Shown here: positions 48,274-64,000 of the stretch, piece after piece
Layout: every line of letters begins with the position of its first letter
Numbering within the stretch: the first letter of the stretch is position 1
NCBI GenBank assembly: GCA_013696965.1
Contig: JACCXN010000057.1
Span: 224,216-288,215, forward strand
Direction of reading: 5' to 3'
DNA length: 64,000 bases
Source of the DNA: Bacteroidota bacterium
GTDB taxonomy: Bacteria; Bacteroidota; Bacteroidia; JACCXN01
The notes under the pieces: model-generated
Databases searched by the model: none
What the model saw: the letters and a program-made list of their open reading frames with translations, nothing else
Told to the model about the DNA's origin: nothing
Position numbers and translations under genes: made by a program

Positions 48274-51200
48274 ATGATTATGCGCATTTTTTTATTGTTA
48301 TTGTTCTCTTTTTTATTCAGCAAAACATATGCTGAACATAAGGATAATGGTTCTCATTCATCCGATAAAAATTCCCGTTTAACATTTATTGAAAATAAAA
48401 ATCAATGGAATAAAAATGTGCAATACAAGGCAGATATTCCAGGAGGCTTTCTTTACCTGGAAAAAAACGGATTTACCTTGGATTTTATTGATCACCAAAC
48501 TTTTACTAATCTAAGAGGGCATGGACATAATAGTAAATTAAAATCGGATGCCACAATTGCAGAAGCCATAAAAGCCCATTGCATTAAAACCTCCTTTATT
48601 AATTCCAATTCCATAGTTACACTTACTGGTATAGAAAACACCCAGAATTATTACAATTACTTTCTTGGAAATGATAAAGCCAAATGGGCTGGGAATGTTC
48701 CCGGCTACAATAAAATCCTATATAACGACATTTATAATCACATTGATTTAATAGTGTATTCAACCCAAGCTAATTTAAAATATGATTTTATTGTTAAACC
48801 AGGTGGGAATCCTTCCCAGATATTAGTTGAATACCAAGGTGCTGATAAAATGCAACTTAAAAATGGCCATTTATTGATAAAAACCTCGGTAAATGAATTT
48901 ACAGAACAAAAACCTTATGCTTACCAGGTATTTAATGGTATTTTAAAAGAAGTTCCTTGTAAATATGTCTTAAATGAAAAACAAATAAGTTATTTCTTTC
49001 CTTTAGGATATGATATAACAAAAGAATTAATTATAGATCCGGTCCTACTATTTTCAACACATTCAGGTTCATATTCTAATAACTTTGGTTATACTGCCAC
49101 TTTTGATTCCAAAGGCTTTTTATATGCCGCTAGTACTGCTTTTGGAAACTTGTATCCTGTTACTCCAGGTGCTTATGATATAAGTTTTAACTCAGGTAAT
49201 GTGGATATCGCCATAACTAAATATGATACAAGCGGAACTGCAATAATTTATTCAACTTATTTAGGCGGTAATGGAGATGAATTGCCTCATAGCCTTGTGG
49301 TAAACAGCAACCAAGAATTGTTTATTTATGGGACAACAGGTTCTGCTAATTTTCCTGTTACTTCCGGGGCATATGACAATACTTTCAATGGAGGTCCCGC
49401 ATTAAGTCCAAATGGATTAGGAGTTTCTTTTCCTTCAGGGTCAGATATTATTGTAAGTCGGCTGAATAGCAATGGATCTCAACTTTTAGCTTCTACATAC
49501 TTAGGGGGATCACACAATGATGGTTTAAATTATACTTCCAATAATACTGTAAATAATATTTTAAAATACAACTATGCAGATGAAGTAAGAGGCGAAATTG
49601 ATATAGATGAACAAAATAATATTTACATTGTTTCATGTACACGTTCAATAAATTTTCCTATTGTTGGGAATTCATTCCAGCCTGTTTATGGAGGAGGTGA
49701 TATAGATGGCGTGGTTGTGAAAATGAACAATAGCCTGTCTTCAATTATTTGGAGTTCATTTATTGGAGGGAATCAACACGATGCAGCTTATTCACTTTCC
49801 CTGGATAGTAACAATGACATTTATATAGCTGGGGGAACCTCTTCTCCAAATTTTCCTGTCACTTCTACGGCTTTGCAAAGTACTTTTCAAGGGGGAAGAT
49901 CGGATGGTTTTATTCTGCATGTTAGTAAAAATGGACAAACTATTATAAATGGAACCTACTATGGTTCTATTGCATATGATCAAACTTATTTTGTAGAACT
50001 TGATAAACAAAATAACATTTATGTTTTTGGTCAAACAGAGGCATCTGGAAATACATTTATTTATAATGCTTTATATTCTAATCCAAATAGTGGTCAATTT
50101 ATTAGTAAAATAACCCCTCAACTGGATTCGCTAATTTTTTCTACTGCTTTTGGAACGGGCTCAGGAGGGCCTAATATTTCACCAACCGCTTTTCTTGTTG
50201 ATGTTTGCAATAAAATGTATCTCTCAGGGTGGGGTGGAGGAACAAATAATTTGAATATTAATTTTTTATACAACAATGCAGGATATACAACAGGAATGCA
50301 GGTTACTCCTGATGCCTTTCAGTCTACAACAGACGGTAGTGATTTTTATTTAATGGTATTGGAAGATGATGCATCGGCCTTGGTTTATGGTAGCTTTTTT
50401 GGTGGATCACAATCACAGGAACATGTAGATGGAGGCACGAGTCGTTTTGATAAAAAAGGAAAAATTTATCAAACAGTTTGTGCAGGATGTGGAGGCAATT
50501 CTGATTTTCCTATTTATCCTAATCCAGGCGCTGTTTCCCCAACTAACAATAGCAGTTGCAACAGTGCGGTTTTTAAATTTGATTTTAATTTACCCATTTC
50601 AATTGCTGGTTTTGATGCTCCAGCACCCGGTTGTGTGCCCTACACAGTTCAATTTGTAAACAACAGCACTATTACCGGAACAAGTAATTATTACTGGGAA
50701 TTTGGTGATGGAAATACTTCTACTGATTTTAATCCCATTCATGAATATTTAACAACAGGACTATTTAATATTATGCTTGTTACTTATGATATTGCTTCCT
50801 GCAACCTCTCAGATACTGTATTTGCCCAGGTAATTGTTTTATCAGATACTTCTTATTCACTTACTCCCCAAACCATTTGTGGTTCGGGAGCGGTTCAAAT
50901 TGGTTTAACACCTGTTAATGATCCATCAATTACTTATCATTGGAGCCCTGCCACTGGATTGTCGGATACTGCCGTTGCAAATCCATTTGCTAATCCAAGT
51001 CAAACTGCCCAATATACCTTAATCATGTCTAATGGAATTTGCATGGATACCATTTCTCAAACAGTAAATTATTATCCTGAATTGTTGAATGTAACAGCAG
51101 ATACATCTGTTTGTGGAGATGCTGCCCTATTGCTTGTTGCAAGTACAATGGGAAATTACTATCAATACATATGGTCAAGTAACAGTACTTTTACTGACAC

Positions 51201-53532
51201 CCTGAATAGTCCCTTAAGCGATAGTACCCTAAATATTAGTATTGCTAATTCAACTACTTATTACATAATGGCTCTGGAATCTGGTTGTGTTTTGAAAGAT
51301 AGCGTCAAAATCCAGGTTTTTCCGGATAGTACTTATGTTTTAAACCCACTAACTTTATGTGGTCAAGGATCAATCCAAATTGGACTTACACCTTTAAATG
51401 ATACTGTTACAACCTATCATTGGAGCCCGGGAATAAGTCTTACAGATTCTACTCTTGCCAATCCCTACGCATTGCTTAATGAATCTGCAGAGTTTCAATT
51501 AATTATTTTGAATGGAGCTTGTATTGATACTTTAACACAGGTAGTTAATTATTTTCCTAACCTTTTGGAAACTTCTCTGGATACTTTTGTTTGCAGCCCT
51601 TCTAGTATTTCAATATATGCAAGTACTTTTGGAAATTTCAGCCAATATATTTGGTCCTCAAATTCTATGTTTTCTGACACATTGAATAATCCTTTAAGTG
51701 ATAGTACTTTAAGCATAAATGTCATTAATTCATCAACATATTATATTTTGGCTTCTGAATCGGTATGCAATTTATTGGATAGTGTTTCTATACAAGTATA
51801 TTCTGATACCACATACAGCTTAAGCCCATTAGAAATTTGTAAGGGCGATACAGTTAACATAGGATTTTTAACTGTACCAGGGAATGTATACACCTGGAAT
51901 TCCTCCTTTGGAATAAGCGATAGTACCATTTCATATCCACAGGCATGGCCTATTGAAAATTCATCTTACATGCTTCTTTCATTTGATGGCTTTTGTACCG
52001 ACACAATTTATCAATCAGTTAATGTTGTTCCGGTTCCGGATATTCAGGTAACCAACGATACAACAATTTGTAGGGGAAATGAAATTACGGTTTTTGCAAC
52101 CACAGGAGGAGTTTACAGCCAATATATATGGTCAAGTAATCCTTCTTTTTCTGATACTCTTAACAATTCTGTTGCTGATAGTTTTTATACTTTTATTCCT
52201 TTAAATGATGTAACATTATATATTGGGGCATTTCAAAGTATTTGTGTTGTAATGGACAGTGTTAAAATTTATGTTTTAAAAGACACTATGTATTCATTGC
52301 CTAATGTAAATTTATGCTTTGCAGATTCAGTTCAAATTGGCCAAATACCCTCAACTGATCCCACAATTACTTATAGTTGGAATCCATCCACAGGATTAAG
52401 CAATTCAAGCATTCCCAATCCTTTTGCATCCCCTGGGCAGTCTTTGATGTATGAATTATTAATTTCAAATGGTTTCTGCACTGATACTATTCGTCAGTTT
52501 GTTAATGTAACCTCTTTCAATTTATTTACTGTAAATGATACAACTGTTTGTAAGGGTCAATCCCTACAAATTAATGCAGGAACTGATATTCCGGGCTCAA
52601 GTTTTCATTGGTCTTCCAATGCTGGTTTTACAGACACATTAAACTTTGTGTCTAATGATGGAAGTCTTTTTGTGAATCCTGTGCAGGGTTCTAATATGTA
52701 TTATGTTAAAGCCCTTTTATCCGGATGTGAAAAACAGGATAGCGTAAGGATAAACAACGATGAAGTAAAAATACAGGCAAATTCTTCAGGAATATGTTTT
52801 GGTGATACCGCTTTTTTAACTGCAATTAATTTAGTTAGCAGCCAGGAGTTAAGTTATTCATGGAGTCCCGTTTCAATGATTATAGCGGGTGAAAACACCT
52901 CAACTGCCCTGGCGAGTCCTTCTCAATCCACTGCTTATTCTGTTACTGCAGAAAATTCTTCTGGTTGCAAAGCAAGTTCACTAACAACACTTTCTGTATC
53001 ATTACTAGAGCCTCAAACAATTAATGCCTCTGTTTCACAAGATTCTATACTTGCTGGAAATTCAGTTTTACTGCAAGCCATGCCCACTTCAGGTTACACC
53101 TACCAATGGAACCCTCACTATGGTTTAAATAATAGCCAGGTTTCAGCCCCCGTTTCAACTCCCTTTACTACTACAACTTATACCGTAACAATTGCCGATG
53201 GACCATGTTATTATTCTGATTCAGTAACTGTTTATGTTTATGAAATCGTTTGTGGAGCACCAAACATATTTATTCCCAATGCTTTTACTCCCAATGATGA
53301 TAATAAAAATGATGTTTTATATGTAAGAGGGAAGTATATCGATTTAATTTATTTTACTGTTTACAATCGATGGGGAGAAAAAGTTTTTGAAACAACAGAT
53401 CAGTCAGTTGGCTGGGATGGAGTGTTTAAAGGCATGAAAGCAGATCCAGGTGTCTTTGTTTACTATCTTACAGCAACATGTTTGGATGGTCAGAATTTTT
53501 TCCTAAAGGGTAATGTTACTTTAATTCGATGA
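48274..53532 (+). CDS. Giant secreted protein: DUF7948/SBBP propeller, PKD, four 160-residue repeats, T9SS type B domain
   Basis: 1752 residues. The signal peptide ends FLFSKTYAEH. An N-terminal domain (about 35-250) starts FIENKNQWNKNVQYKADIPG, the DUF7948 pattern. A repeated beta-propeller (SBBP-like, about 260-770) has blades such as STYLGGNGDELPHSLVVNSN, STYLGGSHNDG and SSFIGGNQHDAAYSLSLDSN. A PKD domain (about 785-855) has WEFGDGNTSTDFNPIHEY. Four tandem units start at D858, D1018, D1178 and D1337, followed by an Ig-like unit. The C-terminus (1660-1752: IFIPNAFTPNDDNKNDV, YNRWGEKVFE, FVYYLTATCLDGQNF) is a CHU_C/type B sorting domain. It is expected to be exported by T9SS and displayed, with adhesion or gliding as possible roles. 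Confidence 0.9.
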   Translation: MIMRIFLLLLFSFLFSKTYAEHKDNGSHSSDKNSRLTFIENKNQWNKNVQYKADIPGGFLYLEKNGFTLDFIDHQTFTNLRGHGHNSKLKSDATIAEAIKAHCIKTSFINSNSIVTLTGIENTQNYYNYFLGNDKAKWAGNVPGYNKILYNDIYNHIDLIVYSTQANLKYDFIVKPGGNPSQILVEYQGADKMQLKNGHLLIKTSVNEFTEQKPYAYQVFNGILKEVPCKYVLNEKQISYFFPLGYDITKELIIDPVLLFSTHSGSYSNNFGYTATFDSKGFLYAASTAFGNLYPVTPGAYDISFNSGNVDIAITKYDTSGTAIIYSTYLGGNGDELPHSLVVNSNQELFIYGTTGSANFPVTSGAYDNTFNGGPALSPNGLGVSFPSGSDIIVSRLNSNGSQLLASTYLGGSHNDGLNYTSNNTVNNILKYNYADEVRGEIDIDEQNNIYIVSCTRSINFPIVGNSFQPVYGGGDIDGVVVKMNNSLSSIIWSSFIGGNQHDAAYSLSLDSNNDIYIAGGTSSPNFPVTSTALQSTFQGGRSDGFILHVSKNGQTIINGTYYGSIAYDQTYFVELDKQNNIYVFGQTEASGNTFIYNALYSNPNSGQFISKITPQLDSLIFSTAFGTGSGGPNISPTAFLVDVCNKMYLSGWGGGTNNLNINFLYNNAGYTTGMQVTPDAFQSTTDGSDFYLMVLEDDASALVYGSFFGGSQSQEHVDGGTSRFDKKGKIYQTVCAGCGGNSDFPIYPNPGAVSPTNNSSCNSAVFKFDFNLPISIAGFDAPAPGCVPYTVQFVNNSTITGTSNYYWEFGDGNTSTDFNPIHEYLTTGLFNIMLVTYDIASCNLSDTVFAQVIVLSDTSYSLTPQTICGSGAVQIGLTPVNDPSITYHWSPATGLSDTAVANPFANPSQTAQYTLIMSNGICMDTISQTVNYYPELLNVTADTSVCGDAALLLVASTMGNYYQYIWSSNSTFTDTLNSPLSDSTLNISIANSTTYYIMALESGCVLKDSVKIQVFPDSTYVLNPLTLCGQGSIQIGLTPLNDTVTTYHWSPGISLTDSTLANPYALLNESAEFQLIILNGACIDTLTQVVNYFPNLLETSLDTFVCSPSSISIYASTFGNFSQYIWSSNSMFSDTLNNPLSDSTLSINVINSSTYYILASESVCNLLDSVSIQVYSDTTYSLSPLEICKGDTVNIGFLTVPGNVYTWNSSFGISDSTISYPQAWPIENSSYMLLSFDGFCTDTIYQSVNVVPVPDIQVTNDTTICRGNEITVFATTGGVYSQYIWSSNPSFSDTLNNSVADSFYTFIPLNDVTLYIGAFQSICVVMDSVKIYVLKDTMYSLPNVNLCFADSVQIGQIPSTDPTITYSWNPSTGLSNSSIPNPFASPGQSLMYELLISNGFCTDTIRQFVNVTSFNLFTVNDTTVCKGQSLQINAGTDIPGSSFHWSSNAGFTDTLNFVSNDGSLFVNPVQGSNMYYVKALLSGCEKQDSVRINNDEVKIQANSSGICFGDTAFLTAINLVSSQELSYSWSPVSMIIAGENTSTALASPSQSTAYSVTAENSSGCKASSLTTLSVSLLEPQTINASVSQDSILAGNSVLLQAMPTSGYTYQWNPHYGLNNSQVSAPVSTPFTTTTYTVTIADGPCYYSDSVTVYVYEIVCGAPNIFIPNAFTPNDDNKNDVLYVRGKYIDLIYFTVYNRWGEKVFETTDQSVGWDGVFKGMKADPGVFVYYLTATCLDGQNFFLKGNVTLIR
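50845..52758 (+). repeat. Four in-gene tandem units of 159-160 codons
   Basis: Unit starts at 50845, 51325, 51805 and 52282 give periods of 160, 160 and 159 codons. Each unit has half A (D-T-Y-SL-P...IGLTP...TYHWSPATGLSD) and half B (DT-VC...ASTxGNY-QYIWSSN-F-DTLN...YYI-A-ES). DNA identity between units is modest, so the duplication is old and kept by selection on the fold. Confidence 0.85.
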
Positions 53533-54545
53533 GCATGAAAATTCGATCTTTTCTATTGCTTATTTTAACCGGTTCATTTTTTGGATTACATGCTCAGGAT
53601 ATCCATTATTCTCAATTTATTTCTGCACCTTATAATCTTAACCCGGCTTTAACCGGAGCTTTTGTTGGTGATGCAAGATTCACTGCCAACCAAAGAACTC
53701 AATGGAGAAGTGTTACTACTCCATATCAAACTTTTGGCGGATTTGTGGATATGAGAAATGTAGCCTTCAAAAATTTCCATCCTGGTATATCAGTATACAA
53801 CGATAAGGCTGGTGATTCACAATTTGGCACTTTTCAACTAAATATTTCAGGTGCATACTCTAAAAAACTTGGCAATTATAACAGGCATAGACTCACACTT
53901 GGAATTCAAACTGGAATTACCCAACGAAAACTAGATTACAATAATCTTTCCTTTGATAATCAATATAACGGATCATCCTATGATTCAGACCTTAGTAGTG
54001 GTGAAAATTTTTCCAGGCAAAGTTACATGTATTTTAATTTGAACTCCGGAATAGTCTACAATTACAGGATAAATAAAAAAGTAGAATTTAATACAGGTTT
54101 AGCAATATTTAATATTAATAAACCCGATCAATCCTTGTATGACAAAGAAAAAATAAAGCTTGACCGTAGGTATACACTTTTTTTAAGTGCAGATGTGGTA
54201 ATTGCAAGCAACAGGGTTAATGTATTGCCATCGTTACTTATTATGACACAAGGAACTTTCAGGGAATATCTTGCAGGTTCATCTGTAAAATTCACCCTTC
54301 AAAATAATTCTGGAAAATATTCGGCACTGCATTTTGGAAGTTGGTTAAGAATGAAGGATTCAGGTTTTATTCTCCTTGGAATGGATTATGATAACGTATA
54401 TGTTGGTCTTAGTTATGATTTTAATTATTCGAATCTAGTTCCAGCTAGCAATTACAGAGGAGGATTTGAAGTTTCAGTAATATATATACTAAGAAAATTT
54501 GTCCCTGGTAAGATAAAATACAAATATTGTCCAGGCTTTATTTAA
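53529..54545 (+). CDS. PorP/SprF family type IX secretion membrane protein
   Basis: 338 residues. Members of this family (SprF in Flavobacterium, PorP in Porphyromonas) pair with individual type B cargo for secretion and attachment. The signal peptide ends FFGLHAQ. The family signature YSQFISAPYNLNPALTGAFV is followed by RFTANQRTQWRSVTTPYQTF, GISVYNDKAGDSQFGTFQLN and LASYSKKLG-type barrel strands, ending VSVIYILRKF. Its start overlaps the stop of the giant cargo gene by 4 bases (ATGA), which fits a dedicated cargo-SprF pair. Confidence 0.93.
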   Translation: MSMKIRSFLLLILTGSFFGLHAQDIHYSQFISAPYNLNPALTGAFVGDARFTANQRTQWRSVTTPYQTFGGFVDMRNVAFKNFHPGISVYNDKAGDSQFGTFQLNISGAYSKKLGNYNRHRLTLGIQTGITQRKLDYNNLSFDNQYNGSSYDSDLSSGENFSRQSYMYFNLNSGIVYNYRINKKVEFNTGLAIFNINKPDQSLYDKEKIKLDRRYTLFLSADVVIASNRVNVLPSLLIMTQGTFREYLAGSSVKFTLQNNSGKYSALHFGSWLRMKDSGFILLGMDYDNVYVGLSYDFNYSNLVPASNYRGGFEVSVIYILRKFVPGKIKYKYCPGFI

Positions 54546-54557
54546 TAGAGGTTATAA

Positions 54558-56858
54558 ATGATTTTTCCTAAGCTATTTGTTTCCCTTCTGTTTTTATTAA
54601 TGGTTTTTTCTGCCTTTGGCCAAAGTCAAAAAAAATTAATAAAGTATGCGGATAAGGCATTCCTGGAGGGTGATTTTTATGGTGCATCTATTTATTACAA
54701 GCAGGCAATGGATAATGATTCTTCTCAAATTCAACTTTTGTATAAATATGCAAGTTCTTTGAGAATGTTAAATGAATATGAATCTGCAGAATATTATTTT
54801 GAAAAGGTTTATAAAAAAGATCGTGGCAGGGAATTAACAGAAACTTTATTTTGGCTGGCTTCCATGCAAAAGAACAATGCCAATTATCTTCAAGCAAAGA
54901 AGAACTTTAAAAAATTAAACAGTCAGTATAAAAAGGATAAAAACAATTACTTTTACAAAAAATCATTAAAAGAACAGGAATCCTGCGATTATGCAATGAA
55001 GCCCTTGATTAATGATTCTGTTGTTATAGAAAACATTGGTGATCCAATTAATTCAATTCATGCAGAATTTAGTCCTTTTCTTTTTGAAAGCGATTTGTAC
55101 TTTTCATCCTTAAGGATAAGTGATACAAGCACCAGGTCAATAGTTGAACCAGGGGAACTGCATTATATAAAAATTTACAAACAACCTTTTTTTAGTGAAA
55201 TTTCAAAGGACATTGAGGAATTGGATACCATCATTAATTCGCCTGGCTTCCATAGTGCCAATGGGACATTCAGCCCGGATGGAAAAAGATTTTATTTTTC
55301 AAGATGTTCCCCGGATAATAAATGTAAAATTTATGAATCTAAAGTGGAAGATGGTATTCATGGTATTTCAGTTGAACTTGAAGATAAAATAAATTTACCC
55401 GGCTTTACATCCACACAACCTTCAATATCTGGGTTTGATTCTGATCAGGAAATCTTGCTTTTTGTATCAGATAGAAATGGGGGAGAGGGAGGCTTGGATA
55501 TTTGGTATTCCATGTTTAAATCAGGAAAATTTTCAACACCAGTTAATGCAGGAAAATTGGTAAATTCAATTGAAAATGAGGTTACACCATTCTACCATAC
55601 ATCTTCCCAGACTCTTTATTTTAGTTCATCTTGGCACAATGGATCAGGAGGGATGGATATATTTAAATCACAGGGTGTGCCCGGAAGTTTTAAAGAACCT
55701 GAAAATCTTGGAAATCCAATTAATAGCTGTGCAAATGATTTGTATTTTACAATCGATTCCGCTGGTGTTTCAGGATTTTTAGCTTCAAATCGTAAAGGCG
55801 GGCATGCTGCACAAGGTGAAACCTGTTGCAATGATATTTACCATTTTCAGTTTCCCCAAACCCTTATTGAGCAGGATTCTCTTCCACCCACTGTTTATAC
55901 AACTTTAGAACAAATTAATAAATATTTGCCTGTTACCTTATATTTTCATAATGATGAGCCAAATCCAAGAACAACAGATACTATCACCTTTAAAAATTAC
56001 ATGAAAACTTATGAATCCTATTTGGGGCTTAAAGAACAATATAAAAAAGAATACAGTACTGGATTAAAAGGTGTTGATATTCAGGAGGCTACTGAGATTA
56101 TTGAAGTATTCTTTGAGGATTTTGTATCAAAAGGTGTAGATGATCTTGAAATGTTTACTCGAATTTTATTTGATGTATTAAAAGAAGGACAGCAAATTGA
56201 ATTAACAGTTAAAGGTTATGCAAGTCCTCTTGCAAAGTCAGACTATAATTTAAAGTTGACAAAAAGAAGAATAAGTAGTCTAAAGAATTATTTAAATGAA
56301 TTTGAAAATGGAATTTTCAAATCTTTTATGGATGGAACTGCGGAAAATGGAGGCTTACTAACACTTGTTGAAATGCCTTTTGGCTCGTTCAAGGCCAATG
56401 AAATGGTGAGCAGCAATTTGCAGGATCTTAAAAATTCAGTATACAGCAAAGCAGCAGCAATGGAACGAAAAATTGAAATTATTGCAGTATCTGTTAAAGA
56501 TTCGGTAAAAATAAGATTAGATGATTTGCAAGAAGAAAAATTTGCGGAAATTTTTGTAGAGGATAAAATATTTAACTTTGGAAAAATTAATTACGGTGAA
56601 GTAGTGGAACATACTTTTCTCATTAAAAACACAGGCGATTCGGATTTAATTATTTACAATGCAAGCGGAAGTTGTGGTTGTACAATTCCTCAATGGAGTA
56701 AAGAACCTGTTCTCCCAGGTGAACAGGCTGCTATAAAAGTTAAGTTTGATTCAAAAGGGAAAATGGGAAATCAAAGCAATACCGTCACTTTAATAAGCAA
56801 TGCGGTTCCCAATGTAACAGTACTAACTGTATCTGCAGAAGTGCTATTAAAGAAATAA
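54558..56858 (+). CDS. PD40-OmpA protein with C-terminal DUF1573 domain
   Basis: 766 residues. The signal peptide ends VFSAFGQSQ. TPR-like helices (about 25-125: FLEGDFYGASIYYKQAMDND, YESAEYYFEKVYKKD) are followed by PD40/WD40-like propeller blades (about 160-430: FSPDGKRFYFSRCSPDNKCK, FVSDRNGGEGGLDIWYSMFK, LYFSSSWHNGSGGMDIFKS). Next is an OmpA-type peptidoglycan-binding domain (about 480-640) with ELTVKGYASPLAKSDYNLKL. Finally a DUF1573 domain (about 668-766) has FNFGKINYGEVVEHTF, SGSCGCTIPQWSKEPVLPGE. TPR-PD40-OmpA proteins resemble PorE-like T9SS parts; the DUF1573 fusion is unusual. It lies 12 bases after the SprF gene. Confidence 0.88.
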   Translation: MIFPKLFVSLLFLLMVFSAFGQSQKKLIKYADKAFLEGDFYGASIYYKQAMDNDSSQIQLLYKYASSLRMLNEYESAEYYFEKVYKKDRGRELTETLFWLASMQKNNANYLQAKKNFKKLNSQYKKDKNNYFYKKSLKEQESCDYAMKPLINDSVVIENIGDPINSIHAEFSPFLFESDLYFSSLRISDTSTRSIVEPGELHYIKIYKQPFFSEISKDIEELDTIINSPGFHSANGTFSPDGKRFYFSRCSPDNKCKIYESKVEDGIHGISVELEDKINLPGFTSTQPSISGFDSDQEILLFVSDRNGGEGGLDIWYSMFKSGKFSTPVNAGKLVNSIENEVTPFYHTSSQTLYFSSSWHNGSGGMDIFKSQGVPGSFKEPENLGNPINSCANDLYFTIDSAGVSGFLASNRKGGHAAQGETCCNDIYHFQFPQTLIEQDSLPPTVYTTLEQINKYLPVTLYFHNDEPNPRTTDTITFKNYMKTYESYLGLKEQYKKEYSTGLKGVDIQEATEIIEVFFEDFVSKGVDDLEMFTRILFDVLKEGQQIELTVKGYASPLAKSDYNLKLTKRRISSLKNYLNEFENGIFKSFMDGTAENGGLLTLVEMPFGSFKANEMVSSNLQDLKNSVYSKAAAMERKIEIIAVSVKDSVKIRLDDLQEEKFAEIFVEDKIFNFGKINYGEVVEHTFLIKNTGDSDLIIYNASGSCGCTIPQWSKEPVLPGEQAAIKVKFDSKGKMGNQSNTVTLISNAVPNVTVLTVSAEVLLKK

Positions 56859-59472: not shown

Positions 59473-59525
59473 ATAATCAAAAAGAAAGGCCGGTTCAAAT
59501 TGAACCGGCCTTTCTTTTTGATTAT
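59473..59525 (+). terminator. 53-base near-perfect palindromic terminator shared by convergent genes
   Basis: Two 26-base arms are exactly complementary around a single central A, with GGCCGGTTCAA at the core and a run of A then T at the ends. Both strands end in a T-run, so it can stop gyrB and the minus-strand locus ending at 59554. Confidence 0.92.
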
Positions 59526-59553: not shown

Positions 59554-59817
59554 TTATTCAGGAATCCTTTTGCTGGAATAAGTTACATTTCCTTTTTTAT
59601 TTGTAGAAGTTGTATCAGAAGGAACTTCTTTAGGCAAAGAAGATGGAATTCTTTGATTTGATGTAGCTTTTTGAGTGTTTTTTTCTTCCATAATTTCAGG
59701 AGCCGTTTGAATTGACCTTTCTGAATTTAAATTGTTTGTTATCCTTTTAGAACTTTCTTGAGCATAACTATTAATTACTATCAAAGTAAATAATAAAACA
59801 AAAGCTGTAAGTTTCAT
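59554..59817 (-). CDS. Small secreted protein at the end of the collagen-like locus
   Basis: 87 residues: a signal peptide (1-19, MKLTAFVLLFTLIVINSYA) followed by a polar, low-complexity segment with no predicted fold (QESSKRITNNLNSERSIQTA, EKNTQKATSNQRIPSSLP). It begins 7 bases after the collagen-like gene and is probably cotranscribed. The repeated SSKRI(T/P) pattern near both ends of the mature part (QESSKRITNN and YSSKRIPE) is notable. Function is unknown. Confidence 0.6.
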   Translation of the reverse strand: MKLTAFVLLFTLIVINSYAQESSKRITNNLNSERSIQTAPEIMEEKNTQKATSNQRIPSSLPKEVPSDTTSTNKKGNVTYSSKRIPE

Positions 59818-59824
59818 ACTATTT

Positions 59825-61534
59825 TTAATTTAAAATCATAATTGTCATTTCACCAGGATTGGTATCTGTAGCTGCATTTCCACCAATATCAACGGTAGTG
59901 TTACCACTCAATCTTGCAGTTCTTAACTGTATAGTATGTGTTCCTGCTGCAACGGTAAACATTGAATTTATAGCACAGGTATTAAATGAATTTGCATTTG
60001 TTGGATTTACTATTGTAAATCTATTCCAGCCTCCCGATACTAAAGCCGCACCATTTAGATAAACTACCATATCAACATTGGCATATAAGCCAGAACTTGT
60101 AGAGGTATTTCTAGCTCCAATAGTTGCCCATACAATAACGGTTGATGGTGCTGTTACAGTAAAAGTTTGGGTTATTCCAGGTTGCAACACATACGCTGTT
60201 GAACTTATTCCTAGTCTTGCTCCTGTTCCATAAACGTGGAAATTTTGAAAGATACCAGTTGCTCCAGTTGCACCAATTGATCCAGTTGCACCAATAGCAC
60301 CGGTTGCTCCGTTAGTTCCAGTTGCGCCATTAGTCCCGTTTGTTCCAGCTGCACCGGTTGCTCCATTAGTTCCATTAGTTCCAGCTGCGCCTGTTGCACC
60401 GGTTGTTCCTGCTGCGCCAGTTGCTCCATTAGTCCCGTTTGTTCCAGCTGCTCCTGTTGCGCCAATTGATCCTGTTGCGCCATTTGATCCTGTTGCTCCT
60501 GTTGCACCAGTTGCTCCAGTTGCACCGTTAATTCCATTTGCTCCATTTGCTCCCGTTGTTCCTTGCGGACCTTGCACTCCGATTTGACCGGTTGCTCCTG
60601 TTGCTCCGTTAATTCCATTTGCTCCCGTTGCTCCATTTGCTCCTGTTTCCCCTTGCGGACCTTGCACTCCGATTTGTCCAGTTGCTCCTGTTGCACCGTT
60701 TATTCCATTTGCTCCTGTTGCACCTTGTGGACCTTGCACCCCCATTTGACCAGTTGCTCCAGTTGAACCTTGAGGACCTTGCACTCCAATTTGTCCTGTT
60801 GCTCCTTGAGGGCCAGTTGGGCCAATTGAAGCCGTACCCGCACAATCATTTGAATCCCAGTTTCCATCATTGTTTATATCCTCGGATGGATCATTTATTC
60901 CATTTCCATTTAAATCCCAGCAAGGAGTACCATTTGCTCCAGTGGGTCCAGTTGAACCGTTAATCCCAGTAGCCCCTGTTGTTCCATTAATACCATTAGT
61001 TCCATTCGCACCAGTAGCTCCTGTTATACCATCCAATCCGTTAGTACCATCAGCACCAGTAGCTCCTGTTGTACCATTTATTCCGTTAGTGCCTGTAGCA
61101 CCTGTTGTTCCATTTATTCCATTGCTTCCATTAGATCCCGTTGCACCAGTTGTTCCGTTTATTCCATTAGTTCCATCAGTTCCATTAGTTCCATTAGTTC
61201 CATTAGTTCCATTAGCACCGGTAGGGCCGGTGGGACCTATAGGACCAGCTCCAGCTCCAATTGCCCTCCAAAATATACCATCAAAATAATAAAATATATT
61301 ATCTGTAATTTGATAAATCAATAATCCTGTAGCAGGAGTTCCAGGTGCAATGTTTACTGTAATTGTATCTGTCCTTGGTATTAATATTCCTTTATCAGAA
61401 GATTTTAAATCAAGAATTGCTGAAGGGTCAGGAGTAACTGTTCCTATTCCAACATTGTCTTGGGCTGTAGTAATAAATAATGAGCAGAAATAAACAACAG
61501 CTATTAGTCCTAATTTTTGTAAACCTTTATTCAT
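59825..61534 (-). CDS. Collagen-like fibre protein with Ca-binding-type insert and C-terminal globular domain
   Basis: 569 residues. Signal peptide (1-25). N-terminal head [53 protein letters not shown], a motif common at the base of Bacteroidota fibre proteins. Gly-X-Y block 1 (about 93-202: [19 protein letters not shown]) is interrupted by [20 protein letters not shown] (205-), an acidic EF-hand/dockerin-like motif with two Asn/Asp loops. Gly-X-Y block 2 (about 240-426) follows, then a C-terminal domain of about 140 residues ([37 protein letters not shown]) resembling a C1q-like or tail-tip jelly-roll. It is probably a trimeric surface fibre. It is the likely target of the linked ECF sigma factor. 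Confidence 0.85.
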
Positions 61535-61802
61535 ATGATAGATCTATAGTAAATAAAACACTAAAGTATAAAAAATTCCCATTTTTATATTCTTTTTGTA
61601 TAAATATTAATTTTTTTCTTTCAATTTAAAATGATTCTACATGAATATTATTACAAATATTTATGTATTTACCATCCTGTTTGCTTGAAATACTGAAACA
61701 CTGTTTACTTTAACTGTTCGTGGAATTAATATTCCTTTATCTGAAGATTTTTAATGCAGAATAGATGAGGGTTTAATGCTTTTTAAGATTTGAAGGTTTA
61801 AA
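61535..61802. other. Intergenic region holding a gene remnant
   Basis: About 270 AT-rich bases between the anti-sigma-like gene and the collagen-like gene. Apart from the remnant at 61700-61775, nothing was found. Confidence 0.4.
61700..61775 (-). pseudogene. Remnant of the N-terminal head of a collagen-like/fibre gene
   Basis: On the minus strand this reads KPSSILH[16 protein letters not shown], matching [20 protein letters not shown] of the neighbouring collagen-like protein in frame except for one stop. It has no start, no repeat region and no tail: a decayed duplicate or the result of a deletion. Confidence 0.7.
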
Positions 61803-63110
61803 TTATCGTCTGATTATAGTAATATTACCAAAGTACGATTTTATTTCCCCATCATTTTGATTGATATTTACAACCCATAAAAATGTTGTTCCTGTATGAA
61901 ATTCATCTCCTGATTTAAAACTTCGTCCATCCCATGGTTTACTTGCATCTTTTGTTTTATAAACTAAAGATCCTGAACGATCATAAATTAACATTTCAAA
62001 AGAAAATTCTGATATTTCAAGTGCTTTAGGAATAAAATTATCATTTAATCCATCGCCATCAGGTGAAAATACATTTGGAGCCAAAAGAGGATTGTTCTCC
62101 TCAAATACAATCGTTTTTGCAATACTATCCTTACAGCCATCTGGGTTTTTAGCTATCAATTTTACCTGATAATTGCCTCTGGATAAGTATATGTGTTTTG
62201 GAGTTTTCTCATAGGAAAACTGATTGTCCCCAAAACTCCATATCCATTCAGTGGTATTGTTGCAATTGCCCGAAAATTCAGCCCCATGATTTACAGAACC
62301 GGAATTAAAAGTCTTCCAATCAAAATTTGCATCAGGAGTATTAATTGGATCAATATTAAATTGTTTTTTTGAACCGGAAATTTTATTGTTTTCCTTATCA
62401 TAAACATTTAAAACAACCATAAAACTTCCTGGATTGCGATATTGATGAATTGGATTAATATTTTTGCTACTCATCCCATCACCGAAATTCCATTCATAGC
62501 TATAGCTGTCATTTGGATTATCCAAAGTAAACTTCGATAACAGATCACATTTTGAGAGACGTTCAATTGTGAAATTCGAATTGTATAATGTTCCTGAATT
62601 GTTTTTTATGGATTTTACATTGTCTTTTATTTCAGTCTCATTTTCAGTGGAAACTTGATTTAATATTTGTTGAAATGCAATAGTTTCAGACTTTATTACG
62701 GAAAGATTGTTTTGTATCTGTTCTTGATGTTTATCAGGGATAGAATTAATTATACCACTGATATTTTCCGAATCAGAAATAATTGCTTTTTCAGCTATTA
62801 TTACATTTTTGTCTTTTGCTGGTGTTTCTGGAATTACATGATTCCCTATTCCATTTTCTTGAGCAATAATAGGTGATCCAAGGTCATATAAATAATAACA
62901 AATAAAACTGGTTATTAATAATAGACTTACTCCTCCAAGTTTTATTCCAGAAGAACCAAACCAATTTGTTTTACTTGATTTCCCAATTGGCGAATTCTCA
63001 AGTTTTTGGCTCATTTCAGTCCAATGACCTGGATTGTATTCAACTTCATAATTCTCAAAAGAATCTTTAATGAAGTCTTCAAAACCATTGTTTTCTTTAT
63101 TGTGATTCAT
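61803..63110 (-). CDS. Single-span anti-sigma-like protein with PKD and CHU_C (T9SS type B-like) outer region
   Basis: 435 residues. The cytoplasmic N-terminus (1-50) has FEDFIKDSFENYEVEYNPGHW-TEMSQKLE, a pattern seen in Bacteroidota proteins encoded after ECF sigma factors and proposed to bind them. One membrane helix (about 56-72, GGVSLLLITSFICYYLY) follows, then an external linker. Two PKD-like domains (about 170-320) have YEWNFGDGMSSKNINPIHQY and WIWSFGDNQFSYEKTPKHIY. The C-terminus has APNVFSPDGDGLNDNFIPKA, YDRSGSLVYKT and TTFLWVVNINQNDGEIKSYF, the CHU_C/type B sorting signature. Its start overlaps the sigma gene by 14 bases. A membrane-tethered protein with a T9SS-like signal is odd. 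Confidence 0.75.
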   Translation of the reverse strand: MNHNKENNGFEDFIKDSFENYEVEYNPGHWTEMSQKLENSPIGKSSKTNWFGSSGIKLGGVSLLLITSFICYYLYDLGSPIIAQENGIGNHVIPETPAKDKNVIIAEKAIISDSENISGIINSIPDKHQEQIQNNLSVIKSETIAFQQILNQVSTENETEIKDNVKSIKNNSGTLYNSNFTIERLSKCDLLSKFTLDNPNDSYSYEWNFGDGMSSKNINPIHQYRNPGSFMVVLNVYDKENNKISGSKKQFNIDPINTPDANFDWKTFNSGSVNHGAEFSGNCNNTTEWIWSFGDNQFSYEKTPKHIYLSRGNYQVKLIAKNPDGCKDSIAKTIVFEENNPLLAPNVFSPDGDGLNDNFIPKALEISEFSFEMLIYDRSGSLVYKTKDASKPWDGRSFKSGDEFHTGTTFLWVVNINQNDGEIKSYFGNITIIRR

Positions 63111-63672
63111 TGTTAACTAACTTAAGTTGTAATATTTTTTTTAAATTTTGCTTGGCTTTTGAATAATTAGATTTGGATGTCCCAATACTTATATTTAATT
63201 CGTTTGCAATTTGCTGATGTGAATAACCATCTACGGCATAAAGATTAAACACTGTTTTATAAGCGGGAGAAAGTCTTTGAATTGCTTCTAAAAGATCAGC
63301 AGTTTTAATTTTTTTCGAAATTAAATTTTCCTCGGGATCCTCTTCTACAAAATCTATGTTTTCAAGCTGTATGTTCGTGTCAAATAATTTAATAGCACTC
63401 TTGTTTTTTCTAAAATTATCAATGGCAGTATTTACCATAATTCTTCTTAACCAACCCTCAAATGATCCTATAAAATCAAACTTAGATAAGCTATTAAAGA
63501 CTTTAATAAATCCTTCCTGCAAAATATCTTTTGCCTCATCAGAATCATTCGTATATCTTAAACAAATAACCATCATTTTACCATAATACATTTTATATAG
63601 CATTTCCTGACATTTTTTGTCTCCATTTTTGCATCCTGAAACTATTTCAATTATGTTCTTATCTTGAGACAT
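63097..63672 (-). CDS. ECF-type RNA polymerase sigma factor
   Basis: A 191-residue extracytoplasmic-function sigma factor. Region 2 (about 20-95) has YKMYYGKMMVICLRYTNDSD, EAKDILQEGFIKVFNSLSKF and FEGWLRRIMVNTAIDNFRKN. Region 4 (about 125-185) has LLEAIQRLSPAYKTVFNLYA, DGYSHQQIANELNISIGTSK and SNYSKAKQNLKKILQ, a helix-turn-helix. Its gene overlaps the start of the PKD/CHU_C membrane gene by 14 bases, so the two are translationally coupled, as in sigma/anti-sigma pairs. The target promoters are unknown; the downstream collagen-like gene is the natural candidate. Confidence 0.92.
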   Translation of the reverse strand: MSQDKNIIEIVSGCKNGDKKCQEMLYKMYYGKMMVICLRYTNDSDEAKDILQEGFIKVFNSLSKFDFIGSFEGWLRRIMVNTAIDNFRKNKSAIKLFDTNIQLENIDFVEEDPEENLISKKIKTADLLEAIQRLSPAYKTVFNLYAVDGYSHQQIANELNISIGTSKSNYSKAKQNLKKILQLKLVNNESQ

Positions 63673-64000
63673 TATCTTAATTCACTTTAATGACGAGGTT
63701 ATAATTAATAGGTTGCTTGTGAATGAGTTTTTAATATAATAAGTACTATAAAGCGTATTTGCAATTTTTTGATTGTTAAGAAACAAGGATAGTTTTGATT
63801 TTCCTAAATAAATAAAAAAACAGGCTCCAACTATTTATTAATATAAAAGTCTGAATAATTTTTAATTAATTATCAATGTTGTCCTAAACAATTTTTAGGT
63901 TAAGCAAAACTACTGATTTCATTGAACAAATTCATCAGTATTTAACAATTTCAAAAAAGAACCCCTTGTATAAAATCTTGTGGTGGGTCATTGTATTCCT
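63673..64000. other. AT-rich region upstream of the sigma gene, no gene seen
   Basis: About 330 bases on the right edge with long A/T runs and no coding frame. It probably carries the sigma gene promoter; no TAnnTTTG box was found on the minus strand. Confidence 0.4.

Follow-up and report, generated by a model that had tools for sequence, protein, structure and literature searches.

We analysed a stretch of 64,000 nucleotides (nt) from a Bacteroidota bacterium (assembly GCA_013696965.1, contig JACCXN010000057.1, positions 224,216 to 288,215; hereafter the window), at the end of which the gene of an extracytoplasmic function (ECF) sigma factor overlaps that of a membrane protein ending in PKD and CHU_C domains, the latter resembling the type B sorting domain of the type IX secretion system (T9SS). 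Judged by sequence comparison, this sigma/membrane pair belongs to a real and widespread sigma/anti-sigma family that is common across Bacteroidota, and it is a variant of the Dma kind in which a degenerate T9SS type B domain replaces the barrel. The best explanation, which we consider probable, is that of an autoregulated ECF sigma factor and a membrane anti-sigma factor of Dma/Reo stock that senses type B secretion or anchoring by the T9SS.

The sigma factor (191 amino acids; 63097..63672, minus strand) contains Sigma70_r2 (E 1e-16) and Sigma70_r4_2 (E 2e-14) in Pfam and NCBIfam scans, and the end of its gene is overlapped by 14 nt by the start of the gene for the 435-amino-acid membrane protein (61803..63110, minus strand), a putative anti-sigma factor by homology and position. 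On the same strand, the latter encodes an N-terminal sigma-linked domain (ASD; residues 1-45, 62976..63110) with the motif FExxIKxSLENxExPYxxxxWxxL, a transmembrane helix (residues 60-76, 62883..62933), a periplasmic tether predicted to be disordered (residues 77-171, 62598..62882), two PKD-type domains (residues 172-339, 62094..62597; PF18911 E 3e-24) and a CHU_C-like domain (residues 340-435, 61806..62093; PF13585 E 1e-13) in which DRSG replaces the DRWG of cargo proteins. The AlphaFold2 model places short helices at residues 9-19 and 27-38 and the transmembrane helix at 60-76, is disordered over nearly all of 76-171 (pLDDT below 50), and forms three mostly confident beta domains over 172-435, namely PKD, PKD and CHU_C. 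A charged domain of about 45 residues stands ahead of the only hydrophobic helix, there is no N-terminal signal peptide, and a hydrophobic segment was found in 177 of 181 family members. Foldseek and VIA-align matched the model to PKD and Ig-like folds, with no clear domain-level match for CHU_C; the second PKD domain was matched to 6aem_A and 4l9d_B (Z 13.0, root-mean-square deviation 1.6 over 80 and 77 residues). Sequence searches of the PDB gave weak matches only for the CHU_C domain (E 0.4-0.8) and no match for a PorP protein.

A search with the N-terminal 117 residues of the membrane protein found relatives in 15 of 60 genomes, and an ECF sigma gene lies just upstream at all of the relative loci retrieved. 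A profile of the ASD (A1) matched 310 of the 396 sampled genomes of the class, and within 100 neighbourhoods drawn from the best-scoring matches every one of 105 ASD genes was located directly behind a same-strand ECF sigma gene, 54 of the pairs overlapping and 49 being separated by no more than 25 nt. Converse sampling by sigma sequence in other, named genomes revealed an ASD gene behind 76 of the 80 closest sigma genes, whose products share 39-54% identity with the window sigma factor. Given that the pairing recurs at all 105 relatives inspected, the linkage is not due to chance. The membrane protein had been placed in an anti-sigma position by a first-pass annotation made from the letters of the window, and the upstream sigma gene and conserved N-terminal domain of its relatives bear this out. 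The same annotation had counted a collagen-like gene into the unit; conservation of linkage extends to the sigma and membrane genes, while the collagen-like gene follows the pair in the window only.

T9SS cargo with a type B C-terminal domain (CTD), that is CHU_C, such as SprB and PG1035, is anchored by SprF/PorP (PMC9143113). The window domain possesses the core motifs of such cargo, and PKD domains precede it as they do in many cargo proteins, but unlike such cargo the window protein has no signal peptide, carries a cytoplasmic N-terminus with a transmembrane anchor, and lacks the RW of the RWG motif, at the position of which YDRSG is found. Its score against TIGR04131, the type B sorting domain, is 33.3 bits, just below the 35-bit cut-off. 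The loss of RW is general, RW being present in none of 114 sigma-linked CHU_C domains compared with 66 of 73 cargo domains when both sets are taken together. For the pattern [IV][FY][DN]RWG, the counts are 0 of 80 sigma-linked domains against 56 of 60 cargo domains from the same neighbourhoods (140 domains; Fisher test 9e-35, with related genomes counted as independent), and in the named set they are 0 of 34 against 10 of 13. The sigma-linked domains nevertheless retain the core FxPxGDGxN, WDG and GxYxW, and they cluster largely apart from cargo (5 label changes versus a shuffled mean of 45). The possibility that each anti-sigma CHU_C was copied from that of its own neighbour was rejected for most pairs, the neighbour ranking first in only 3 of 34. 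The pairing of an anti-sigma position with a type B-like C-terminus, which the first-pass annotation had singled out as unusual, is real and recurrent, being seen in 80 of the 105 ASD proteins sampled, a proportion biased towards CHU_C forms because the neighbourhoods represent the best-scoring ASD matches. A CHU_C-type pair is also present in a cultured environmental bacterium, Crocinitomix catalasitica ATCC 23190 (L211). The first-pass annotation had also remarked that a T9SS type B C-terminus normally marks exported cargo. The likeness to CHU_C stands, but without RW and a signal peptide, and with a transmembrane anchor, the domain fits a docking or sensing look-alike better than exported cargo. 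Given the uncleaved anchor and the cytoplasmic N-terminus, export of CHU_C-type anti-sigma proteins in the manner of ordinary cargo appears unlikely from the modelled architecture.

Other members of the family carry other modules at the periplasmic end. Eight of the 105 ASD proteins bear a peptide of 17 residues, FGDMIDxxxGFVxxTxE, with a match in PorP/SprF proteins (the PorP loop); its core motif, FGD[MQ][IL]D, occurs in only 1 of 1368 other open reading frames. A PorP_SprF barrel is joined to the ASD at two loci, L040 (E 1.9e-19) and L178 (E 1.5e-21); directly downstream a small CHU_C protein without RW is encoded, which in L178 has a lipoprotein-like signal. In both of these (L178:5283-7762 and L040:8000-10539) the ASD is present in up to four repeats ahead of the barrel. 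The genes that follow the pairs correspond to these modules: CHU_C cargo is encoded after 38 of 80 CHU_C-type pairs versus 3 of 278 background genes, and PorP/SprF after 7 of 8 peptide-type pairs versus 0 of 80. When mapped on the sigma tree, the modules change 16 times compared with a shuffled mean of 61.5, and they are therefore mostly inherited, with some switching. The connection of the pair with the T9SS that the first-pass annotation had drawn is upheld by these modules and neighbouring genes. Binding of type B CTD proteins by PorP-like proteins is known from P. gingivalis and F. johnsoniae (PMC9143113), so that a PorP/SprF-family protein would, by analogy, be the natural candidate for a docking partner of the CHU_C domain. 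SprA is present in 383 of the 396 genomes, so that its co-occurrence with the ASD has little power; among the 13 SprA-negative genomes, ASD proteins were found without CHU_C, with the exception of one draft genome (G061) of a genus that is otherwise SprA-positive.

In 19 members, the ASD itself matched no Pfam family with a meaningful score, and no NCBIfam family covers it. In many genomes of Bacteroidales, Cytophagales and other groups it heads longer proteins without CHU_C; the ones that were scanned have an OMP_b-brl-type outer-membrane barrel (OMP_b-brl_2) at their C-terminus. Alignment of the N-termini of CHU_C-type and barrel-type proteins by hhalign yielded a probability of 98.9 and an E of 1.4e-17. 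The sigma-binding-like character that the first-pass annotation had seen in this N-terminus is matched by similarity to sigma-linked barrel-type proteins and by no Pfam or NCBIfam family. Dma anti-sigma factors consist of an anti-sigma domain, a transmembrane helix, a disordered tether and a beta-barrel, and are encoded beside an ECF sigma gene on which the phenotype of Dma deletion depends; Das1 and Das2 were assigned to ECF21 (PMC13088901). A similar sigma/anti-sigma pair has been reported (PMC9308784), and EcfO-Reo is described in two works (PMC13114119, PMC9308784). The window pair resembles Dma and EcfO-Reo in having the sigma gene followed by the anti-sigma gene, a single transmembrane helix, a disordered tether towards the outer membrane, and an N-terminal domain of the same family as that of the barrel-type relatives, Dma1 and Dma2 themselves being likened by their published layout. 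It differs from them in that the protein ends in PKD and RW-less CHU_C domains without an outer-membrane beta-barrel, and in that the CHU_C form occurs in T9SS-bearing, mostly Flavobacteriales-like genomes. Because PKD, PKD and CHU_C replace the barrel, we regard the window protein as a variant and not as a Dma member, and we infer its anti-sigma role from homology and gene order.

A motif common to the regions upstream of the sigma genes, AGGCAACC-N15/16-C[GA]TCTA, was described by a matrix derived from 170 such regions. In the window, the ECF-type promoter motif CAAGCAACC-N12-CCTCGTCAT (63690..63719, minus strand; 19.8 bits) precedes the sigma gene and ends 17 nt from its ATG; the source contig ends at window position 64000, and with it the neighbourhood upstream of the sigma gene. 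The match rate of 72% in sigma upstream regions is optimistic because the matrix was trained on them, and the independent test is provided by neighbouring genes. Motifs above 12 bits were detected before 5 of 9 next PorP genes (two of the five being copies of one locus) and before 5 of 47 next CHU_C cargo genes, compared with 1 of 307 opposite-strand genes and 7 of 358 other later same-strand genes as controls. Within the window genome, the exact pattern gave 7 matches versus 1 in the reversed control and the variant pattern 2 versus 4, and few of these matches precede plausible targets. One of the 7, at 21.3 bits, lies about 480 nt ahead of a gene encoding a type A CTD protein, which is itself followed by a PorP/SprF gene (L265:2450-7382; contig C56 of G000).

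Sequence analysis supports the favoured explanation through the sigma linkage, the homology of the N-terminus to Dma-like proteins, the transmembrane helix and tether, the RW-less CHU_C, the swapping of PorP modules and the promoter motif. The short N-terminal domain would hold the sigma factor in the cytoplasm, the transmembrane helix would anchor the anti-sigma protein in the inner membrane, and a flexible tether of about 95 residues would carry the PKD and CHU_C-like domains towards the outer membrane, where a non-exported look-alike of the type B sorting domain may take the place of Dma's own outer-membrane barrel. The look-alike would most likely dock to a partner from the type B pathway, either a PorP/SprF-family barrel or the translocon, and a change in docking, whether by cargo competition, loss of free receptor or envelope stress, may free the sigma factor, which would then drive transcription of its own operon, along with neighbouring genes for PorP or CHU_C surface proteins in many relatives. 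The status of the T9SS is in this way a possible signal. Several points weigh against such an account. We infer both the ligand and the direction of control; the exact-pattern search of the window genome yields only one other intergenic site above 18 bits; related genomes enter the Fisher tests as if they were independent; the sigma-linked CHU_C is closest to that of the neighbouring cargo in only 3 of 34 pairs, which lends no support to a partner-specific decoy; and the next gene in the window encodes a collagen fibre, not CHU_C cargo, and has no motif. More tentatively, and at somewhat less than even probability, a general principle can be proposed: in T9SS-bearing Bacteroidota, an ECF sigma/anti-sigma family may use molecular mimicry to monitor secretion and anchoring in the type B pathway, with every anti-sigma factor displaying a non-exported imitation of one partner (an RW-less sorting domain, a PorP/SprF loop or a whole PorP/SprF barrel) that would compete with the real partners and free a sigma factor making more cargo or receptor.

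The most serious competitor, though a rather less likely one, accepts a true sigma/anti-sigma pair and takes the PKD and CHU_C domains as generic Ig-like sensors of envelope stress or another ligand with no T9SS contact. The lost RW of the sorting motif is in line with this, as are the family members with nothing but tethers, basic tails or unrelated barrels, the high sequence variability of CHU_C-type proteins and the response of a barrel-type relative to envelope stress (PMC9308784). It fits poorly with the fact that the swapped modules (CHU_C, PorP loop and PorP barrel) all come from one pathway and are matched by the neighbouring genes, and with the confinement of CHU_C-type members to SprA-positive genomes, bar the one draft genome mentioned above. 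The first-pass annotation had itself put forward, as one hypothesis, that T9SS activity or export status acts as the signal. In a fuller version of this idea, the protein would be a genuine type B substrate freed by proteolysis, export would remove the anti-sigma arm, and secretion activity would thereby be sensed. Although the CHU_C fold and its PNVFSPDGDGxND core are retained, and although in P. gingivalis the T9SS CTD protein PorA has an effect on signalling through PorXY-SigP (PMC7712824), the uncleaved transmembrane anchor with its cytoplasmic domain, the lack of RW in all 114 sigma-linked domains and the occurrence of PorP-loop and PorP-barrel anti-sigma proteins that themselves have no CHU_C make this improbable. 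The idea that an ECF sigma gene merely happens to lie beside an ordinary CHU_C cargo gene could appeal to the dozens of PKD/CHU_C-like matches in the window genome, yet it is already refuted by the conserved linkage (105 of 105 and 76 of 80) and retains practically no probability.

A further alternative, which is compatible with the favoured explanation, is that a single surface-signalling regulon comprises the sigma factor, the anti-sigma factor, a collagen-like fibre and a small secreted protein, with the fibre under its control. All five minus-strand elements listed in the first-pass annotation are present at or near the positions it gave. Beyond the pair, these are a 61-nt fossil of the fibre-head sequence (61711..61771; 82% identical to 61366-61426), the fibre of 569 amino acids (59825..61534; PF01391 E 1e-45), which is not a conserved part of the unit, and an open reading frame for the small protein of 87 amino acids (59554..59817), which has no significant family in Pfam and NCBIfam scans (a DUF6705 match being sub-threshold) and is the last gene ahead of a strong terminator. 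This palindromic terminator, with a 20-bp stem (59476..59522, no strand assigned), is shared with the convergent gyrB. The common strand, the shared terminator and the lack of a terminator-like site on the genes' strand between pair and fibre would favour a single regulon, as would a relative whose CHU_C-type pair is followed by a protein with an NVGI..PDPSA head resembling that of the fibre (L136:3607-4827); this protein lacks collagen-like character and matched no Pfam family. Set against these, the gap between pair and fibre measures 269 nt and holds the fossil, the fibre gene has no promoter motif in front of it (best 3.2 bits), and a collagen-like gene directly after the pair was seen at none of the 105 ASD loci and 80 sigma-sampled loci elsewhere, so that a conserved fibre linkage was rejected. 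Given that the fibre is not conserved here and the motif is absent, control of a surface fibre by the sigma factor, as first suggested, is unsupported, and the single regulon is in our estimation fairly unlikely.

The favoured explanation can be compared with known signalling systems. As in TonB-dependent FecI/FecR signalling (PMC9249621), an outer-membrane event would reach an ECF sigma factor through an inner-membrane anti-sigma factor, but with a T9SS part instead of a TonB receptor as the partner; Pfam and NCBIfam scans revealed no FecR domain in the window membrane protein. The Porphyromonas gingivalis PorA/PorXY-SigP system (PMC7712824, PMC4800418) is similar in that a T9SS sorting-domain protein influences an ECF sigma factor, but PorA is exported and works via a two-component system and not an anti-sigma factor. 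Two cases of T9SS regulation are known, namely the PorXY-SigP system of P. gingivalis (PMC4800418) and, in F. psychrophilum, a promoter class that is likely ECF-controlled (PMC9723704); no published account of an anti-sigma protein with a type B CTD, PorP or SprF part was found in the literature set searched. Little is understood of how bacteria with a T9SS adjust the production of type B surface proteins to their capacity for secretion and anchoring, and the widespread family described here appears to draw its sensor parts from the type B pathway itself. The Dma concept would thereby be extended beyond Bacteroides, the loss of RW offers a sequence mark to separate sensors from cargo that are now annotated alike, and the promoter motif makes the regulons searchable.

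Additional arrangements were observed among the relatives. A second tandem sigma/ASD pair is present at five loci (L045, L084, L087, L090 and L103), its ASD protein ending in a lysine-rich tail; the gene behind it encodes a protein of about 600 amino acids. At four others (L105, L111, L114 and L137), a conserved protein of about 644 amino acids without signal peptide, with DLREKITEDDLPQLCNELRDFIVDVVSQ near its start, is encoded after the CHU_C-type pair, so that no surface gene stands in that place. In the window, a type B operon (48274-56858, plus strand) is located on the far side of gyrB, some 5 kb away from the sigma pair. It encodes a 1752-amino-acid CHU_C cargo protein with an intact RWG, a PorP/SprF protein (PF11751 E 2e-37) and a PD40/DUF1573 protein of 766 amino acids, whose gene occupies the place of a PorE-like gene.

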